This document shows, one piece after another, positions 5,132-49,746 of a DNA stretch of 64,000 nucleotides (position 1 is its first letter; each line of letters begins with the position of its first letter). Source of the DNA: an uncultured Ignavibacteriota bacterium (GTDB lineage Bacteria > Bacteroidota > Ignavibacteria > UBA10030 > UBA8401); the NCBI GenBank assembly GCA_903861125.1, contig CAIOTF010000023.1, positions 1 through 64,000 of the forward strand, in the 5' to 3' direction. The notes under the pieces were generated by a model. That model was not told the origin of the DNA. It did not search any database and saw only the letters and a list, made by a program, of their open reading frames with translations. The position numbers and the translations under genes were made by a program.

Positions 5132-5389
5132 AAGTTATTCCTCTTCTCTTTCAGTGGTTCAATGCATACAAGATACGATAAATAAACCAATCTCTCACGC
5201 CGGCACATCGATCTATTTTCACTGATGGAATTTTGTGTAAAAAGACGCATGTTCATGTGCCAATTCCTCCATACCTGGATATTGCGATAGACATCAGCGT
5301 GCAATTTGTATCATACTGCTAAGTATTATACATTATGGGAAAGGTTTATTCATTCTTCAGTAAAAAAATACAACACTCAAGGAATTCTT

Positions 5390-6481
5390 ATGCTAGTCGA
5401 CATTACCACCGCATCACCTCCATTCATGGTAGAGCAGGCTAAGGCAACGGAAGAACTGAAAAAACGGATGGCGGTGACACCTGTTGCCGGACGCATGATT
5501 GATATGGCATCGCACCATTCTGGAATTTCCCAGCGCTATTTTGTTGTTCCCGACGGCGGATCCGGAACGGAGAAAAAATTCTATTCCAATTCCGGTGGAT
5601 ATATCTCTCCAGACACCGGAACTAGGATGAACGAGTATGAACGTTGGTCGAAAGAGCTGACGGGAAACGCGGTTGCAGAGATTCTTGCAAAGAATTCTGT
5701 CGATCCCGGCAGCGTGGAACGATTGATCACTATTTCCTGCACCGGATTCTTCGCCCCCGGCCTTGATTATTATCTGATCGACCGGTTCAATTTTCCCGCA
5801 TCGGTGAAAAGAACGAATATCGGATTTATGGGATGCGCCGCTTCGCTGATCGGATTCAACACCGTGCTGGAATCAATGTCGCAGCTTCGCAGTGCGAACG
5901 GAAAGACACTTCTTGTGAGCGTTGAACTCTGCTCTCTTCATCTTCAAACTGAGCCGACACGCGACAATATACTTGCTAACATGATCTTTGCCGACGGTTG
6001 TGCGGCTGCATTGTTCAACAGCCCGTCCGCAGCCTCTACCGGATTGCAGTTACTCTTCACCTCTTCATATCTCTTTAAAGACTCTGCAGAATATATGGGA
6101 TGGAAGATCGGCAATACCGGATTTGAGATGGTGCTTTCATCGGAACTTCCGAAGATCATCCTGAACAATGCTGCGCCGGCATTGAAAGATATTCTTTCAC
6201 AACACCAGCTTTCTCCGGAACAGATCACTCATTGGGCGCTGCATCCCGGCGGACGCGCAATACTCGATTCATTACAGAACGGCATGAATATTTCCGATGA
6301 AAAAATGATCCCGTCAAGAACGGTATTGAAGAACTACGGAAATCTCTCATCCGCATCGATCCTTTTTGTGCTGAAGGAACTGATGAAGAATACACCGCTG
6401 AAGAATGATGAACTCATCTGCGCAGTGGCGTTCGGTCCCGGCTTAACAATGGAAGTTGCACTTCTCAAGGTCAGAGCATAA
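5390..6481 (+). CDS. type III polyketide synthase (chalcone/stilbene synthase family)
   Basis: The 363-residue protein is close to the usual family length. Type III PKSs condense malonyl-CoA units onto a CoA starter in a single active site. The Cys-His-Asn triad is present: C117 in ISCTGFFAPG, H285 in HWALHPGGRA and N318 in YGNLSSAS. The frame is open upstream to 5306, but the internal ATG at 5390 follows AAGGAATTCTT and begins a normal N-terminus. Its stop overlaps the next ATG by one base, so it is coupled to the methyltransferase and probably the FAD oxidoreductase. The product cannot be deduced; similar three-gene sets in bacteria are usually inferred to make alkylresorcinol- or alkylpyrone-derived quinones or lipids. 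Confidence 0.92.
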   Translation: MLVDITTASPPFMVEQAKATEELKKRMAVTPVAGRMIDMASHHSGISQRYFVVPDGGSGTEKKFYSNSGGYISPDTGTRMNEYERWSKELTGNAVAEILAKNSVDPGSVERLITISCTGFFAPGLDYYLIDRFNFPASVKRTNIGFMGCAASLIGFNTVLESMSQLRSANGKTLLVSVELCSLHLQTEPTRDNILANMIFADGCAAALFNSPSAASTGLQLLFTSSYLFKDSAEYMGWKIGNTGFEMVLSSELPKIILNNAAPALKDILSQHQLSPEQITHWALHPGGRAILDSLQNGMNISDEKMIPSRTVLKNYGNLSSASILFVLKELMKNTPLKNDELICAVAFGPGLTMEVALLKVRA

Positions 6482-45595: not shown

Positions 45596-45625
45596 AAAAA
45601 GTCTTCCGTTTCCGAAAGACTTTTT
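45596..45625. terminator. terminator hairpin at the left edge of the AT-rich island
   Basis: AAAAAGTCTT and AAGACTTTTT arms around a ten-base loop, with A and T runs that suit both strands. A base-for-base identical copy lies at 49717-49746 on the other side of the island. Confidence 0.85.
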
Positions 45626-45786: not shown

Positions 45787-46121
45787 CTAAAATAAAAATT
45801 CTCCGACCAATTTATCGTCAATAAATACTTCAATAATCTCATCCTTTGTTTGCGAGTTATAGAGCATCATCGATTTAATTTTTCTACCCTTATACTCTGC
45901 GTTATATTCAATTTTTTTGTCTTTCCCGCTATTCCCTTTTATTACTTCATTACCATCAATGAGTATACATATTTTTCTATTAAACACATGATACTCTTCC
46001 CGCACTTTTACTTTTATTTCTCCACCTGCCTCCGACGAGATATTCCACAACACATGTTGTTCGGAGCCGCAACCTGCAATAAAGGCCGATAGAAAGAATA
46101 TAACTATTACACTGTTTTCAT
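45787..46121 (-). CDS. small lipoprotein, start frameshifted by one base
   Basis: The clean frame from the GTG at 46053 encodes 88 residues. Upstream in the same frame the codons read NSVIVIFFLSAFIAGCGSEQHV, a clear lipoprotein signal, but no start codon is available before a stop. An ATG at 46121, five bases after the preceding gene, is in a different frame and hits a stop after four codons. Adding one A to the run in ATGAAAAC restores MKNSVIVIFFLSAFIAGC. The mature part is a small charged beta-rich domain (KVREEYHVFNRKICILIDG). It is the last gene of the island and could be an immunity or binding lipoprotein; that is conjecture. Confidence 0.6.
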
Positions 46122-46125
46122 GATT

Positions 46126-46560
46126 TTATTTTTTTCCCCGGTTATGTTCGCTCTTTACAAATATCCAGTAGAGAAACACTCCCAATATCATATTTCGCAA
46201 AACGCTCCACCAGTTTATTTCACTTGATATCGTACTCCCAAAACAGCCGCACTCTACAATGTTTCCACGGAATAGATTAAATAACATTGCGGCGGTAAAT
46301 ACGGACAACAATATAACCAATACAAAGCTAAACATTTTTGACATTCCGCAGATACATAAACCTATTCCGGCAACGACTTCGGTCATTACAATACATATCG
46401 ATAAAGGAATGATCATCTTAAGAGGGAGTAAATCGAAATGCTCTACATCTGATACGAAGAGCGGAAATGATAATGCTTTGGCGACACCGGAATAAATAAA
46501 TAAAGCAGAAGCTATGATTACGGCAATACGTTTTCTATCTACAGGAATATTATATTTCAT
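46126..46560 (-). CDS. MauE/DoxX-like redox-associated membrane protein
   Basis: The 144-residue protein has four membrane segments (IIASALFIYSGVAKAL, MIIPLSICIVMTEVVAGIGLCI, FSFVLVILLSVFTAAMLFNLF, NMILGVFLYWIFV). The loop motif VECGCFGS before the last segment is the hallmark of MauE-like proteins. These are thought to pass electrons to periplasmic thioredoxin-like partners during disulfide formation. A TlpA-like thioredoxin is encoded at the head of the same island, which fits a shared role. Confidence 0.82.
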   Translation of the reverse strand: MKYNIPVDRKRIAVIIASALFIYSGVAKALSFPLFVSDVEHFDLLPLKMIIPLSICIVMTEVVAGIGLCICGMSKMFSFVLVILLSVFTAAMLFNLFRGNIVECGCFGSTISSEINWWSVLRNMILGVFLYWIFVKSEHNRGKK

Positions 46561-46564
46561 GTTT

Positions 46565-47230
46565 TTATTTTACCCATCTTAACAAATTAAATAACATTAT
46601 TTTGATACTTGTTTCAACAATAGCTATTACAAGGACGATAACAGATGTTTTTTTTATGCTAATACGTAATATTGTTGATATTCCGGTGATTAAAGCAGTG
46701 TAGAACCATAAATCAAAAACATTAATATCCTGTGCGGTTTTTTGAATTGCATCCGAAGTATTTACGAACAATATACTGTTTGCCCCTGCGGCATTTGGCA
46801 TTGTTATATAATTATCTGTTTTGTTTATATATCTTATTAGTCCAATTATTAAAGAGAAACATTTTTCAAACATTTTGATTAATGTACAATACATTGTTAC
46901 AGTAAATATTCGTTTAAATACACTGGGTTGGATTGATTTCGATACAATTACAAGTAACAAATAAAACAAAGTGGATACCCATAAAACAATAACTATATAT
47001 TTAAATAATATGCCAAAAGGCAATAAAATGAATATTATTTCATAATGACCGACCTTACTTACTTTAGATATTGTCCTTGCTAAAGCTTCAACTGAAGATA
47101 TATATAACAAGTATTTGCCCCACATCCATCGATGATTATCCTGGGCAATATTATAGTATGCTGAAGGTGATAACATCATACTATTATTAAAAATGTGAAT
47201 ATTAATATTTTTCAAAAATGTGTTTCTCAT
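46565..47230 (-). CDS. multi-pass membrane protein, Yip1-like
   Basis: The 221-residue protein has about five hydrophobic segments (IIFILLPFGILFKYIVIVLW, FYLLLVIVS, around 105-130, LWFYTALITGISTILRI, TSVIVLVIAIVETSIKIMLF). The N-terminal MLSPSAYYNIAQDNHRWMWGKYLL and the later INVFDLWFYTALITGIS resemble bacterial Yip1-family proteins. No active-site residues can be named. In this context it could be an export or immunity membrane protein. Five bases separate it from the MauE-like gene. Confidence 0.6.
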   Translation of the reverse strand: MRNTFLKNINIHIFNNSMMLSPSAYYNIAQDNHRWMWGKYLLYISSVEALARTISKVSKVGHYEIIFILLPFGILFKYIVIVLWVSTLFYLLLVIVSKSIQPSVFKRIFTVTMYCTLIKMFEKCFSLIIGLIRYINKTDNYITMPNAAGANSILFVNTSDAIQKTAQDINVFDLWFYTALITGISTILRISIKKTSVIVLVIAIVETSIKIMLFNLLRWVK

Positions 47231-47492: not shown

Positions 47493-47741
47493 TCAGAAGA
47501 TTATGCATATTATTCGAATATATTTGCACCACTCTGAACCATAGATCACATCGCAAATAAATTCGCTTAGTTTACATATCCACGCAGGAAGTCCTCCAAC
47601 ATTTTGCGCAAGATCTTGTTGGGTCATCATTTTAGTCTGTTGAGTCATGTTTTGCTGGATTTCCTTACTTTGTACCACTTCAGCCGATATCATTGTCAAT
47701 GCCAATGCAATTAATAATAATATTTTTGGTAGATGCTTCAT
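47493..47741 (-). CDS. candidate peptide precursor with double-glycine leader and four-Cys core
   Basis: From ATG 47741, preceded by a strong AGGAGGAAAG, the product is 82 residues. Residues 1-20 look like a Sec signal (MKHLPKILLLIALALTMISA). Residues 39-50 read MTQQDLAQNVGG, which fits the class II bacteriocin leader pattern: M/L at -12, T/S at -11, acidic at -8, L at -7, GG at -2/-1. The 32 residues that follow contain four Cys spaced CX6C-X8-CX6C and are otherwise hydrophobic and aromatic (LPAWICKLSEF...). The gene sits in an island with a C39-type peptidase and two redox proteins. A processed, disulfide-bonded secreted peptide is the simplest reading; activity is unknown. Confidence 0.65.
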   Translation of the reverse strand: MKHLPKILLLIALALTMISAEVVQSKEIQQNMTQQTKMMTQQDLAQNVGGLPAWICKLSEFICDVIYGSEWCKYIRIICIIF

Positions 47742-47881
47742 CTTTCCTCCTGTTTGATTATATGGTTTAGTAGGTTGATCAATTTGCTGCGGCCATACCA
47801 TTTAATGCAAATATCGTTTCACATTCAGGGCCGTCTAAACGTTTATGACATTTTCAATAAATAATACTAGCAAATTGAATT

Positions 47882-48436
47882 TTATTCTAGGGCGCTATAT
47901 TCAATAAAACCAATTGTAACTCCTAAATTAATGGTTACCATTTTAATTTTCGAGTTAAGATTTTCCCAACTAATATTTTTTGCTTCTATTCCCATGAGTG
48001 ATTTACGATCTTCGTTTGTTGGTTTGCCATACCGTAATAAATAATCGTTTTGAATAAATAATAGTACTTTGCTAACAATATTGTTTTCCTCTTTGATTAA
48101 CGGCATAATCATATATGTTTTTTTAACTAATAATGATTCTTTGCGTGTAAATTCAAATCCCAACATTCCATGTTTGTATAAAGACGTATCAGCAAATAGC
48201 ATTACAATATTATGATCACCATTGTTATCATTATCTTTCAATTGGTCATATATTTTTTCTACCTGGTCTGCATTAGGTAGTGTATGAATACTTAAATATT
48301 TATTTGTGTTTATCTCAGACAGTTTCGTTTTCCAGCATATTTTTTCGAATTCATACTTAAATTTTTGATTTGCCTGAGGCAAAAGGAGGTTACTAACCGT
48401 AACCATGTAAATAATAGTCATATATATATATATCAT
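47882..48436 (-). CDS. secreted or anchored protein of unknown function in the island
   Basis: The 184-residue protein starts at ATG 48436, with GGAG seven bases upstream. The N-terminus is hydrophobic (MIYIYMTIIYMVTVSNLLL), so it is exported or anchored. The rest is a mixed alpha/beta domain (NIVMLFADTSLYKHGML, VSKVLLFIQNDYLLRYG) with one Cys (KICWKT). I recognise no family. It lies between the peptidase and the peptide gene and could be an immunity, accessory or scaffold protein. Confidence 0.65.
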   Translation of the reverse strand: MIYIYMTIIYMVTVSNLLLPQANQKFKYEFEKICWKTKLSEINTNKYLSIHTLPNADQVEKIYDQLKDNDNNGDHNIVMLFADTSLYKHGMLGFEFTRKESLLVKKTYMIMPLIKEENNIVSKVLLFIQNDYLLRYGKPTNEDRKSLMGIEAKNISWENLNSKIKMVTINLGVTIGFIEYSALE

Positions 48437-48475: not shown

Positions 48476-49021
48476 TTATTTTGTAATAGTATTATTTGTT
48501 TTAAATATTATTGCTTCACCATCCCAGTGCTTTAGCAGATTAATAATTTGTATTTTGTATTTGCCAATCCCTGGATCTCGTATAAATATATAATCATCTG
48601 CACCCATGCTGTCTGCTACTACAAAATGATTTTTGTTGACGTATATTATTGCGGGCATATTAATTTTGTTATATTCATTTGGTGCATATTTCCAACCTTC
48701 AGCTTCTAAGCCATTCGCTATTGACATTTGTATCAAAGAAAGCATGGATGTTCCTTTTTCGCTTAAATTTAGATTCTTTTCCATTTCTTTCATTGTTAAG
48801 TTAATTTTATAATGGTCATAAATCATTTTTAACGCTGTTGGTCCACAATTATTGTTTTTAGATTGAATGATTACACCGACTGTATCCATAAAAACACCAC
48901 CATAAGACCAAACAGCAATTTTTTTACTTAAAACTATCATATAGTCAATATTAAAGCTGTAAATCAACGCGCATCCCCCTGAGACAATAATATAAATCCG
49001 TGACCGTATTTTGTGTTTCAT
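48476..49021 (-). CDS. membrane-anchored C39-family (double-glycine) peptidase-like protein
   Basis: The 181-residue protein has a basic N-terminus (MKHKIRSR) followed by a hydrophobic segment (IYIIVSGGCALIYSFNIDYM), which suggests the remainder faces the periplasm. The C39 papain-like domain is recognisable: the Gln of VIIQSKNNNCGPTALKMIYDHY with the catalytic Cys, MLSLIQMSIANGLEAEGW, PAIIYVNKNHFVVADS with the catalytic His, and IRDPGIGKYK with the Asp. C39 enzymes normally cut after GG in bacteriocin leaders and are fused to ABC transporters; here no transporter is attached or nearby. Its ATG overlaps the thioredoxin stop by four bases. Confidence 0.82.
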   Translation of the reverse strand: MKHKIRSRIYIIVSGGCALIYSFNIDYMIVLSKKIAVWSYGGVFMDTVGVIIQSKNNNCGPTALKMIYDHYKINLTMKEMEKNLNLSEKGTSMLSLIQMSIANGLEAEGWKYAPNEYNKINMPAIIYVNKNHFVVADSMGADDYIFIRDPGIGKYKIQIINLLKHWDGEAIIFKTNNTITK

Positions 49022-49581
49022 TTTGGCAATATTTTATTTTGCATAAATATTGCTGCTAAATTGCTATCGTTGCTAAATGAACGTTCACCCAAAAGTCGAT
49101 ATGCTATTTTACCTTCTTCGCTCACAAATAGTATTGATGGCACCGCAGTAATTTTGAATATTTGTCTATATGTATTATTGGAATCTAAAATAAACTCATA
49201 AATAACCTGTTTATTTATGAGTTTAAGGAACTCAGATGTTCCCGAAGAAATTGCAATCACTATAATATTTTGGTCCTTCTTTATCTGAGAATAATTTTTC
49301 ATTTCAACTTTGCAATGCTCGCACGCAGGGGATACAAAAAGCATAATATATTTTTTCCCTTTGAGATTATCGGATGATATTGTGTTATTCATACTCGTTA
49401 CAAACGAAAAGGATGGAATGTCAGAGCCAATAGGCAATGGTTCAAGAAATACATTGTATTTCAAAAAAAGGAATATAGATATTGGTGCACCGAACAACAG
49501 AATAAGATAAATATACGCATAGTGCTTGCTTCCCTGCGGGTTGGTAATATTAGCATCAAAGGTGGGATAATTATTTATCAT
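49018..49581 (-). CDS. membrane-anchored TlpA-like thioredoxin
   Basis: The 187-residue protein has an anchor at about residues 22-42 (YIYLILLFGAPISIFLFLKY) and a thioredoxin-fold domain with the active site FVSPACEHCKVEM (CxxC with EH between), SSDNLKGKKYIMLF and the cis-Pro region ITAVPSILFVSEEGKI. The domain should lie in the periplasm. With the MauE-like protein it could form or reshuffle disulfides in the four-Cys peptide. It is the first gene of the island's minus-strand operon. Confidence 0.88.
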   Translation of the reverse strand: MINNYPTFDANITNPQGSKHYAYIYLILLFGAPISIFLFLKYNVFLEPLPIGSDIPSFSFVTSMNNTISSDNLKGKKYIMLFVSPACEHCKVEMKNYSQIKKDQNIIVIAISSGTSEFLKLINKQVIYEFILDSNNTYRQIFKITAVPSILFVSEEGKIAYRLLGERSFSNDSNLAAIFMQNKILPK

Positions 49582-49716: not shown

Positions 49717-49746
49717 AAAAAGTCTTCCGTTTCCGAAAGACTTTTT
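49717..49746. terminator. terminator hairpin at the right edge of the AT-rich island
   Basis: Identical over 30 bases to the hairpin at 45596-45625 and in the same orientation. It lies after the methyltransferase gene on the minus strand and before the island promoter, so it may end methyltransferase transcription and insulate the island. Confidence 0.85.

Follow-up and report, generated by a model that had tools for sequence, protein, structure and literature searches.

We describe a gene cassette, carried on the minus strand of a 64,000-nucleotide stretch of DNA from an uncultured Ignavibacteriota bacterium (hereafter, the window), whose best overall explanation, held with moderate confidence, is the production of a small bacteriocin-like peptide through a Sec-first route in which cleavage, disulfide formation and antibacterial activity are all inferred. 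The gene order, its conservation, the catalytic-type residues of a C39 peptidase, the lack of a C39-ABC exporter and the two-part leader of the precursor are shown. Taken by itself, the maturation route (Sec export, periplasmic C39 cleavage and oxidation) is a likely inference, and an antibacterial function is likely given that route, the activity being untested. The ordinary description of the locus is that of a bacteriocin-like cassette; what sets it apart is, in all likelihood, that Sec-first export is combined with a C39 peptidase that is uncoupled and apparently periplasmic. Cleavage of double-glycine leaders normally takes place in the cytoplasm and is the work of a C39 domain that forms part of the exporter; a Sec-first version, if true, separates export from maturation. 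No description of this cassette was found in the literature searched, subscription papers lying mostly outside that search.

The cassette is transcribed in the order redoxin, C39 peptidase, SecU, precursor, Yip1-like protein and MauE (Table 1), with the gene of the TlpA-like redoxin overlapping that of the C39 peptidase by 4 nt. Its flanks encode a Lon protease, two sulphur-transport (YeeE-type) proteins, a methyltransferase and an M49 peptidase. PADLOC returned no match among the five cassette proteins scanned, and no outer-membrane exporter was recognized for the cassette.

Table 1. Cassette features and boundaries, in window coordinates.
Feature	Coordinates	Strand	Evidence
30-bp palindromic repeat, copy 1, cassette boundary	45596..45625	.	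repeat search
Small ORF, 88 aa; cassette membership uncertain	45787..46053	-	no relative among ORFs of the 24 other loci
P0006, MauE family membrane protein, CGCFG; candidate disulfide/redox partner	46126..46560	-	Pfam PF07291 E 1.8e-21, 77.2 bits vs cut-off 27
P0005, Yip1-like multi-TM protein; candidate immunity protein	46565..47230	-	Pfam Yip1 just below cut-off; YknW family sub-threshold
P0001, precursor peptide, 82 aa: Sec-like signal, GG leader, 4-Cys core	47493..47741	-	ORF reading, relatives, chance test
Mature core (predicted), 32 aa, Cys gaps 6-8-6; AF2 model of two helices	47496..47591	-	sequence and AF2
Leader motif MTQQDLAQNVGG, residues 39-50; predicted C39 cut after GG	47592..47627	-	GG invariant in 9 aligned precursors
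AGGAGG ribosome binding site	47746..47751	-	sequence
SecU, secreted protein, 184 aa, no known family; candidate immunity protein	47882..48436	-	position, relatives; AF2 mean pLDDT 79
Free-standing C39 peptidase, 181 aa, N-terminal TM-like segment	48476..49021	-	Pfam PF03412 E 3.6e-29
Thioredoxin/redoxin, membrane-anchored, TlpA-like, CEHC	49018..49581	-	Pfam Redoxin E 1.8e-11; sub-threshold MauD match
30-bp palindromic repeat, copy 2, cassette boundary	49717..49746	.	repeat search

The precursor opens with a signal (MKHLPKILLLIALALTMISA...), continues through a hydrophilic spacer to the leader motif MTQQDLAQNVGG and ends in the core, which is thus preceded by 50 residues, signal included. The Sec-signal form of the N-terminus was judged by eye and by a hydropathy rule only. 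Set against the consensus LSxxELxxIxGG, the motif has M, T, D and L at -12, -11, -8 and -7 and Gly-Gly at -2 and -1; L at -7 and the two glycines are identical to the consensus, M, T and D are conservative, and the non-hydrophobic Asn at -4 departs from it. An earlier note, made without database searches, had proposed a four-cysteine precursor here with a "canonical" double-glycine leader. The precursor held, and so, for the most part, did the description of the leader; the Asn at -4 makes the word slightly generous. Also borne out were the placement of Cys at core positions 6, 13, 22 and 29 (CX6C-X8-CX6C), the hydrophobic C-terminus and the expected size of about 3.8 kDa minus four hydrogens, the computed core mass being 3839.65 Da in the reduced form and 3835.62 Da once two disulfides are formed. 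The ribosome binding site lies 4 nt upstream of the precursor ATG and is strong, as the note had said; the high expression drawn from it is not shown. A purine-rich stretch was seen by eye upstream of all 14 of the 14 precursor starts inspected. A longer version of the window precursor could begin at 47801; we consider the 82-residue form the probable one because the ribosome site is present and its start resembles the MKK/MRK-type starts of relatives.

A detector combining K/R near the start, a hydrophobic stretch, a leader score of at least 6 and four or more Cys following GG or GA was used to assess chance occurrence. Its signal and GG-leader elements were passed by a single one of the 404 small ORFs of the window, namely P0001, which also has at least four core Cys, and 40 first-order Markov sequences of the window, of the same length, gave 0.025 such passes on average and four Cys in none (0/40). 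A chance origin of P0001 is therefore excluded. The best NCBIfam match of the precursor, NF053514 (BLB8/JUQZ-1), reached 18.6 bits against a curated cut-off of 40 and covered residues 1-49 only; homology to JUQZ-1, a Brevibacillus bacteriocin, was rejected, the match being below threshold and restricted to the leader part.

The C39 peptidase retains the catalytic-type residues Q53, C59, H132 and D149, which are invariant among nine aligned sequences. A basic N-terminus precedes its single TM-like segment, from which we infer that the peptidase domain probably lies on the periplasmic side of the membrane. The protein has no ABC domain and is the sole PF03412 match in the 4.19-Mb host genome, which leaves the P0001 leader without an available peptidase-ABC exporter. 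The earlier note had remarked that a Sec-type signal stands beside the double-glycine leader, a feature that normal bacteriocins of this kind lack, and had left the surrounding cassette undescribed. As an observation this held, with support from the gene neighborhood and from relatives, and the cassette resolves the apparent contradiction: because the nearby C39 peptidase is membrane-anchored and ABC-free, cleavage can follow Sec export.

Conservation was examined in 25 C39 loci by means of an HMM survey (L012-L019, L029, L061-L075 and the window; L061 and L062 come from one genome). Own genome included, C39 matches occurred in 10 of 41 nearest genomes (E 0.001; one partial, at 26%), in 19 of 98 from the order (E 1e-12) and in 6 of 395 from the phylum (E 1e-28); at class level they occurred in 26 of 391 genomes (E 1e-25), three of them in open frames of 732-758 aa, which were set aside. 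Named records with matches were nine Ignavibacteria/Ignavibacteriales and 'Bacteroidota/Bacteroidetes' MAGs and one Holophagales MAG; weaker matches came from four Staskawiczbacteria/Nealsonbacteria MAGs, outside the locus comparison. Also outside the 25 are L011, L030-L033, L058-L060 (C39 in 732-758-aa frames), L101 and L078-L079 (glanced at only); L078 has a short Cys-rich ORF near its C39 gene and L079 an ABC transporter.

A signal-plus-leader precursor lies no more than 735 bp from the C39 gene in 23 of the 25 loci. The predicted cleavage site is Gly-Gly, Gly-Ala or Gly-Ser in 21 of these and variant in two (Ala-Gly in L061; Gly-Thr, or a later Gly-Gly, in L029); a downstream Met was taken as the precursor start in L016 and L017. 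The strict detector requiring at least four Cys was passed by 16 of 23 fetched loci, the other precursors resting on relaxed rules and inspection. No precursor was seen near the C39 gene on inspection of L075. A TlpA-like gene adjoins the C39 gene in 22 loci (21 by the positional rule, which L073 misses by 23 bases), being missing in L018, L063 (contig start) and L075; Yip1 occurs in 20 loci, and MauE in 10, several records ending early. The SecU gene sits between the C39 gene and the precursor in the window and in L013. One genome of the same genus, G004, has no C39 match: its contig stops inside the TlpA gene of the same cassette, so this absence is an assembly edge and not a loss. Outside Bacteroidota, the Holophagales locus L029 contains TlpA, C39, a signal-plus-leader peptide with two Cys (precursor 5170-5439), an ABC transporter and Yip1. 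A P0005 query finds no Yip1 in that genome, though the Yip1 protein at the locus passes Pfam.

The exact 6-8-6 Cys spacing of the window core was found in no relative examined, which bears on the refuting condition set by the earlier note (no conserved homologue with the same spacing); the CX6C arms recur, around a middle gap that varies. Near-palindromic Cys spacing characterizes 10 of 23 cores. Seven have exactly equal outer gaps (6-8-6 in the window, 6-9-6 in L013, 6-12-6 in L012 and L018, 10-9-10 in L016, L017 and L019), L062 (12-13-13) and L064 (12-15-14) come within one or two residues, and L068 (first seen as L045) has a six-Cys palindrome, 6-3-30-3-6. Under random Cys placement, the seven exact cores would show equal outer gaps with a frequency of 4.3-6.4%, differences as small as those observed would arise in 13% (L062) and 19% (L064) of cases, and the L068 palindrome in 0.16%; the pattern was noticed post hoc, and several of the symmetric cores are mutually related. 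The other 13 cores are not near-palindromic. Nine cores are of a second type, with gaps of 13/14-0-8 or 7-0-0-8-1 and a CCxDLWIFxxC-like motif, and four have two Cys only. This second precursor type, likewise with a Sec-type signal and C39, was observed in L069-L074, which form one genus group.

AF2 modeling on four sequences placed helices at model residues 15-28 and 35-43, with a block pLDDT of 69-84 from residue 11 on; the core model has a mean pLDDT of 69.5 and a pTM of 0.41. The rung spacing, equal on both arms, changes together from 6 to 10, which suggests a nested helical hairpin. We thus entertain two antiparallel helices joined by nested C1-C4 and C2-C3 bonds as a possibility, inferred from spacing and a model of modest confidence, the disulfide pairing itself not having been seen. 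Fold comparison of the core model was uninformative (Z of at least 2 for 7 of 30 chains; best Z 2.7).

The genes accompanying the precursor differ among cassettes in a manner suggestive of immunity. A SecU family member is present by position in 13 of 25 loci (14 with L012, where SecU lies upstream), the L069-L074 branch being linked to the family through L014, L015 and L063. An ABC ATPase occurs in seven (L029, L061, L062 and L064-L067; Pfam ABC_tran was confirmed for L029, L061, L062 and L065), alongside putative permeases that matched no Pfam family where scanned. No locus has both (0/25), and five have neither by position: three whose records end less than 1 kb from C39, plus L012 and L075. 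The Fisher p value for this exclusion is 0.0016; the loci being related, it serves as description rather than as a test. Cores are glycine-rich in the ABC cassettes and mostly shorter and Cys-rich in the others.

Such a core-specific partner is what would be expected of immunity, and Yip1 together with either SecU or an ABC transporter looks like immunity, so a bacteriocin is the likely product, its activity untested. A precedent for linking Yip1 to immunity is YknW, the Yip1 protein of the pump that protects against the SDP toxin (PMC4887032). These immunity roles rest on position and on weak family matches. P0005 scored 27.4 bits against the Pfam Yip1 cut-off of 28.6 and 21.9 against the NCBIfam YknW cut-off of 110, and its counterparts in L012, L029, L065, L066 and L070 pass the Pfam Yip1 cut-off. 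SecU has no Pfam or NCBIfam match, none of six family members passed a Pfam cut-off, and a Foldseek search with its AF2 model returned nothing at an E value of 0.001 or below. Assigning a fold from its best VIA hit, YjgB (4ygt; Z 7.0, 129 residues, 4.9 A rmsd), was rejected as below trust level; further matches were 1vr8 (Z 6.3) and DcrB (Z 5.8), with no fold assigned.

The mechanism we propose is inferred throughout, save for the pairing of the genes, which is shown. Sec would export the precursor and the signal peptide would be removed. Once in the periplasm, the remaining LSxxEL-type leader would be recognized, and cut after Gly-Gly, by the C39 peptidase, which is anchored in the membrane and free of an ABC domain; the TlpA-like thioredoxin and MauE would oxidize the four Cys. 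The core would then fold into two antiparallel helices with nested C1-C4 and C2-C3 bonds, and the resulting hydrophobic 3.8-kDa hairpin would leave through an unknown outer-membrane step, most likely to act on the envelope of related bacteria. The producer would be protected by the Yip1 protein, together with SecU here or with an ABC transporter in other cassettes. As a side observation on exit, L013 (5225-7618) encodes a DUF5686/CarboxypepD_reg protein between precursor and Yip1, a possible outer-membrane receptor or exit route.

A bolder reading, slightly more likely to stand than to fail, is that these loci represent an unrecognized maturation route for antibacterial peptides of Gram-negative bacteria: Sec export first, then GG cleavage in the periplasm, where the C39 peptidase is ABC-free, and oxidation by dedicated MauE/TlpA proteins would yield disulfide-zipped helical hairpins, with Cys rungs shifting in step on both helices, from an exchangeable cassette with swappable immunity modules. 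If true, the Sec-first route suggests what a periplasmic C39 peptidase can do. E. coli, with Sec and Dsb already serving its periplasm, would be a host in which to reconstruct the route, and the 25 loci constitute a short list of cassettes for a disulfide peptide family in little-studied Ignavibacteria-type bacteria.

Several known systems share parts of this arrangement. Double-glycine (class II type) bacteriocins share with the window locus the leader pattern, but for position -4, and a cognate C39 domain; theirs is part of a C39-ABC exporter, whereas the 181-residue window protein has no ABC domain. Bacteroidetocins (class IIf), also from Bacteroidota, likewise combine a GG leader with two or more Cys (four in the case of A and B), and their small clusters encode both a thiol oxidoreductase and a protein with multiple TM segments (PMC6671954). 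Their leader is 15-16 aa long, with no Sec signal described in the relevant sections, and their C39 domain is fused to an ABC exporter (PMC6671954); the window core, in contrast, follows 50 residues that include a signal, in a genome without a C39-ABC protein. FapD of the Pseudomonas Fap system is a free-standing C39 peptidase active in the periplasm (PMC5557850); its substrate is left open, the Fap proteins are without canonical C39 sites, and it serves amyloid secretion (PMC5557850). The SDP toxin (42 aa) resembles the inferred mature window peptide as a small disulfide peptide with a Yip1 protein in the protecting ABC system (PMC4887032); SDP and YknWXYZ differ in being Gram-positive and in having no GG leader or C39 in the relevant sections (PMC4887032). 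A disulfide-forming role for MauE has been the subject of speculation, and the protein is present in candidate RiPP clusters found with decRiPPter (PMC7794033). In candidate Streptomyces families MauE (in one, MauD too) adjoins candidate precursors, as in the cassette; these families are predictions only, with C39 or a GG leader unmentioned in the relevant sections (PMC7794033). Two other candidate precedents were rejected: Ax21, proposed for Sec plus GG, has no GG motif (PMC3897388), and the C39 mention in a polymorphic-toxin survey concerns toxin domains (PMC3482391).

Among alternative explanations, the one that survives best, unlikely as we judge it to be, retains the same export and maturation and makes the peptide a pheromone-like signal instead of a killer. 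Pheromones do occur among GG-leader peptides, and one of nine precursors gave a weak match to the ComC model (best E 0.0037). Against this, no sensor kinase or regulator was found among the seven window proteins scanned or, by eye, in the relatives' translations; the cassettes contain Yip1 plus SecU or an ABC transporter instead, and the cores are hydrophobic and very diverse. The choice between bacteriocin and signal, both of which the earlier note had allowed for, is not settled experimentally, and the immunity-type neighbors favor a bacteriocin.

A structural or envelope role for the peptide, for example as a membrane-associated or Fap-like fiber subunit, is very unlikely. FapD provides a published periplasmic C39 peptidase, and P0003 matches the FapD model at E 7.5e-10, below the FapD cut-off. 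No pore or amyloid-repeat protein was recognized in the cassette, however; most cores have 26-50 residues with paired Cys, and thiol partners are absent from the relevant Fap sections (PMC5557850).

Less likely still is a strict glycocin, that is, a homologous helical hairpin glycosylated at a loop Ser. Glycocins are like the cassette in their C39 processing, thioredoxin-like partners and paired CX6C; nested disulfides are published for glycocin F and sublancin (PMC12457901). The first gaps of glycocin F (PDB 2KUY; 6-8-6-14) equal those of the window core, sublancin (PDB 2MIJ; 6-7-6-6) shares the paired CX6C, and glycocin F and the window core both start xPAW and have a Ser at the same loop position. 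Unlike glycocins, the cassette has no glycosyltransferase (none among the scanned cassette and flanking proteins), a C39 peptidase outside any ABC transporter, a Sec signal and a Gram-negative host. From the first Cys onward, the window core and glycocin F agree at only 3 of 23 non-Cys positions (shuffle p 0.12), and a PDB sequence search with the window core gave no match; homology was accordingly rejected in favor of resemblance only. Glycosylation in trans is not excluded, the host genome having 32 PF00535 glycosyltransferase matches; among a partial set of PF00535 matches from 13 genomes, none was at a cassette. Finally, a chance or degenerate ORF, for which one could cite the short length and the frame-disrupted precursor of L066 (6447-7029; sequencing error or decay), is all but excluded, since 23 of the 25 loci conserve both the build and its position. 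A Sec-first, bacteriocin-like peptide thus remains the preferred reading.

The cassette occupies what is probably a hotspot of exchanged genes, some for competition or defense, with no integrase recognized. This reading follows from the repeats that flank an AT-rich cassette and from the different cargo held at the same site by G004 and G005. The two 30-bp copies are identical, their central 28 bp has no further occurrence in the host assembly even when up to three mismatches are allowed, and the repeat can fold into a hairpin on both strands, the right-hand copy appearing terminator-like in a scan. GC content is 27-36% across the cassette (1-kb windows starting at 45.5 to 49.0 kb) versus 40-50% outside it (starts at 41.0-44.5 and 50.0-53.0 kb). 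At the same site in G004 (L087), a 99-nt repeat at 98%, hairpin included, flanks other cargo, one of whose proteins bears a type IX secretion tail; beyond it the window cassette begins, matching at 96.5% nucleotide identity as far as the contig extends. In G005 (L088, 1236-6324), the interval between M49 peptidase and YeeE/lon is occupied by a type IIG restriction enzyme-methyltransferase, matched by PADLOC at E 4.6e-260, and its small neighbors. No flanking repeats of 28 nt or longer were found in L013-L016, and the remaining repeats near the cassette, 20-34 nt long and some 71-82% identical, were taken as chance. An origin from phage or plasmid was considered and set aside: a search for viral relatives gave one weak viral contig match at 25% identity, and in a plasmid search the 10 records inspected, of 555, were peptidase- or bacteriocin-type ABC transporters. 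Inside the repeat-bounded region, the 88-residue ORF showed a weak match, below cut-off, to a 6-fold beta flower protein (E 0.0018).
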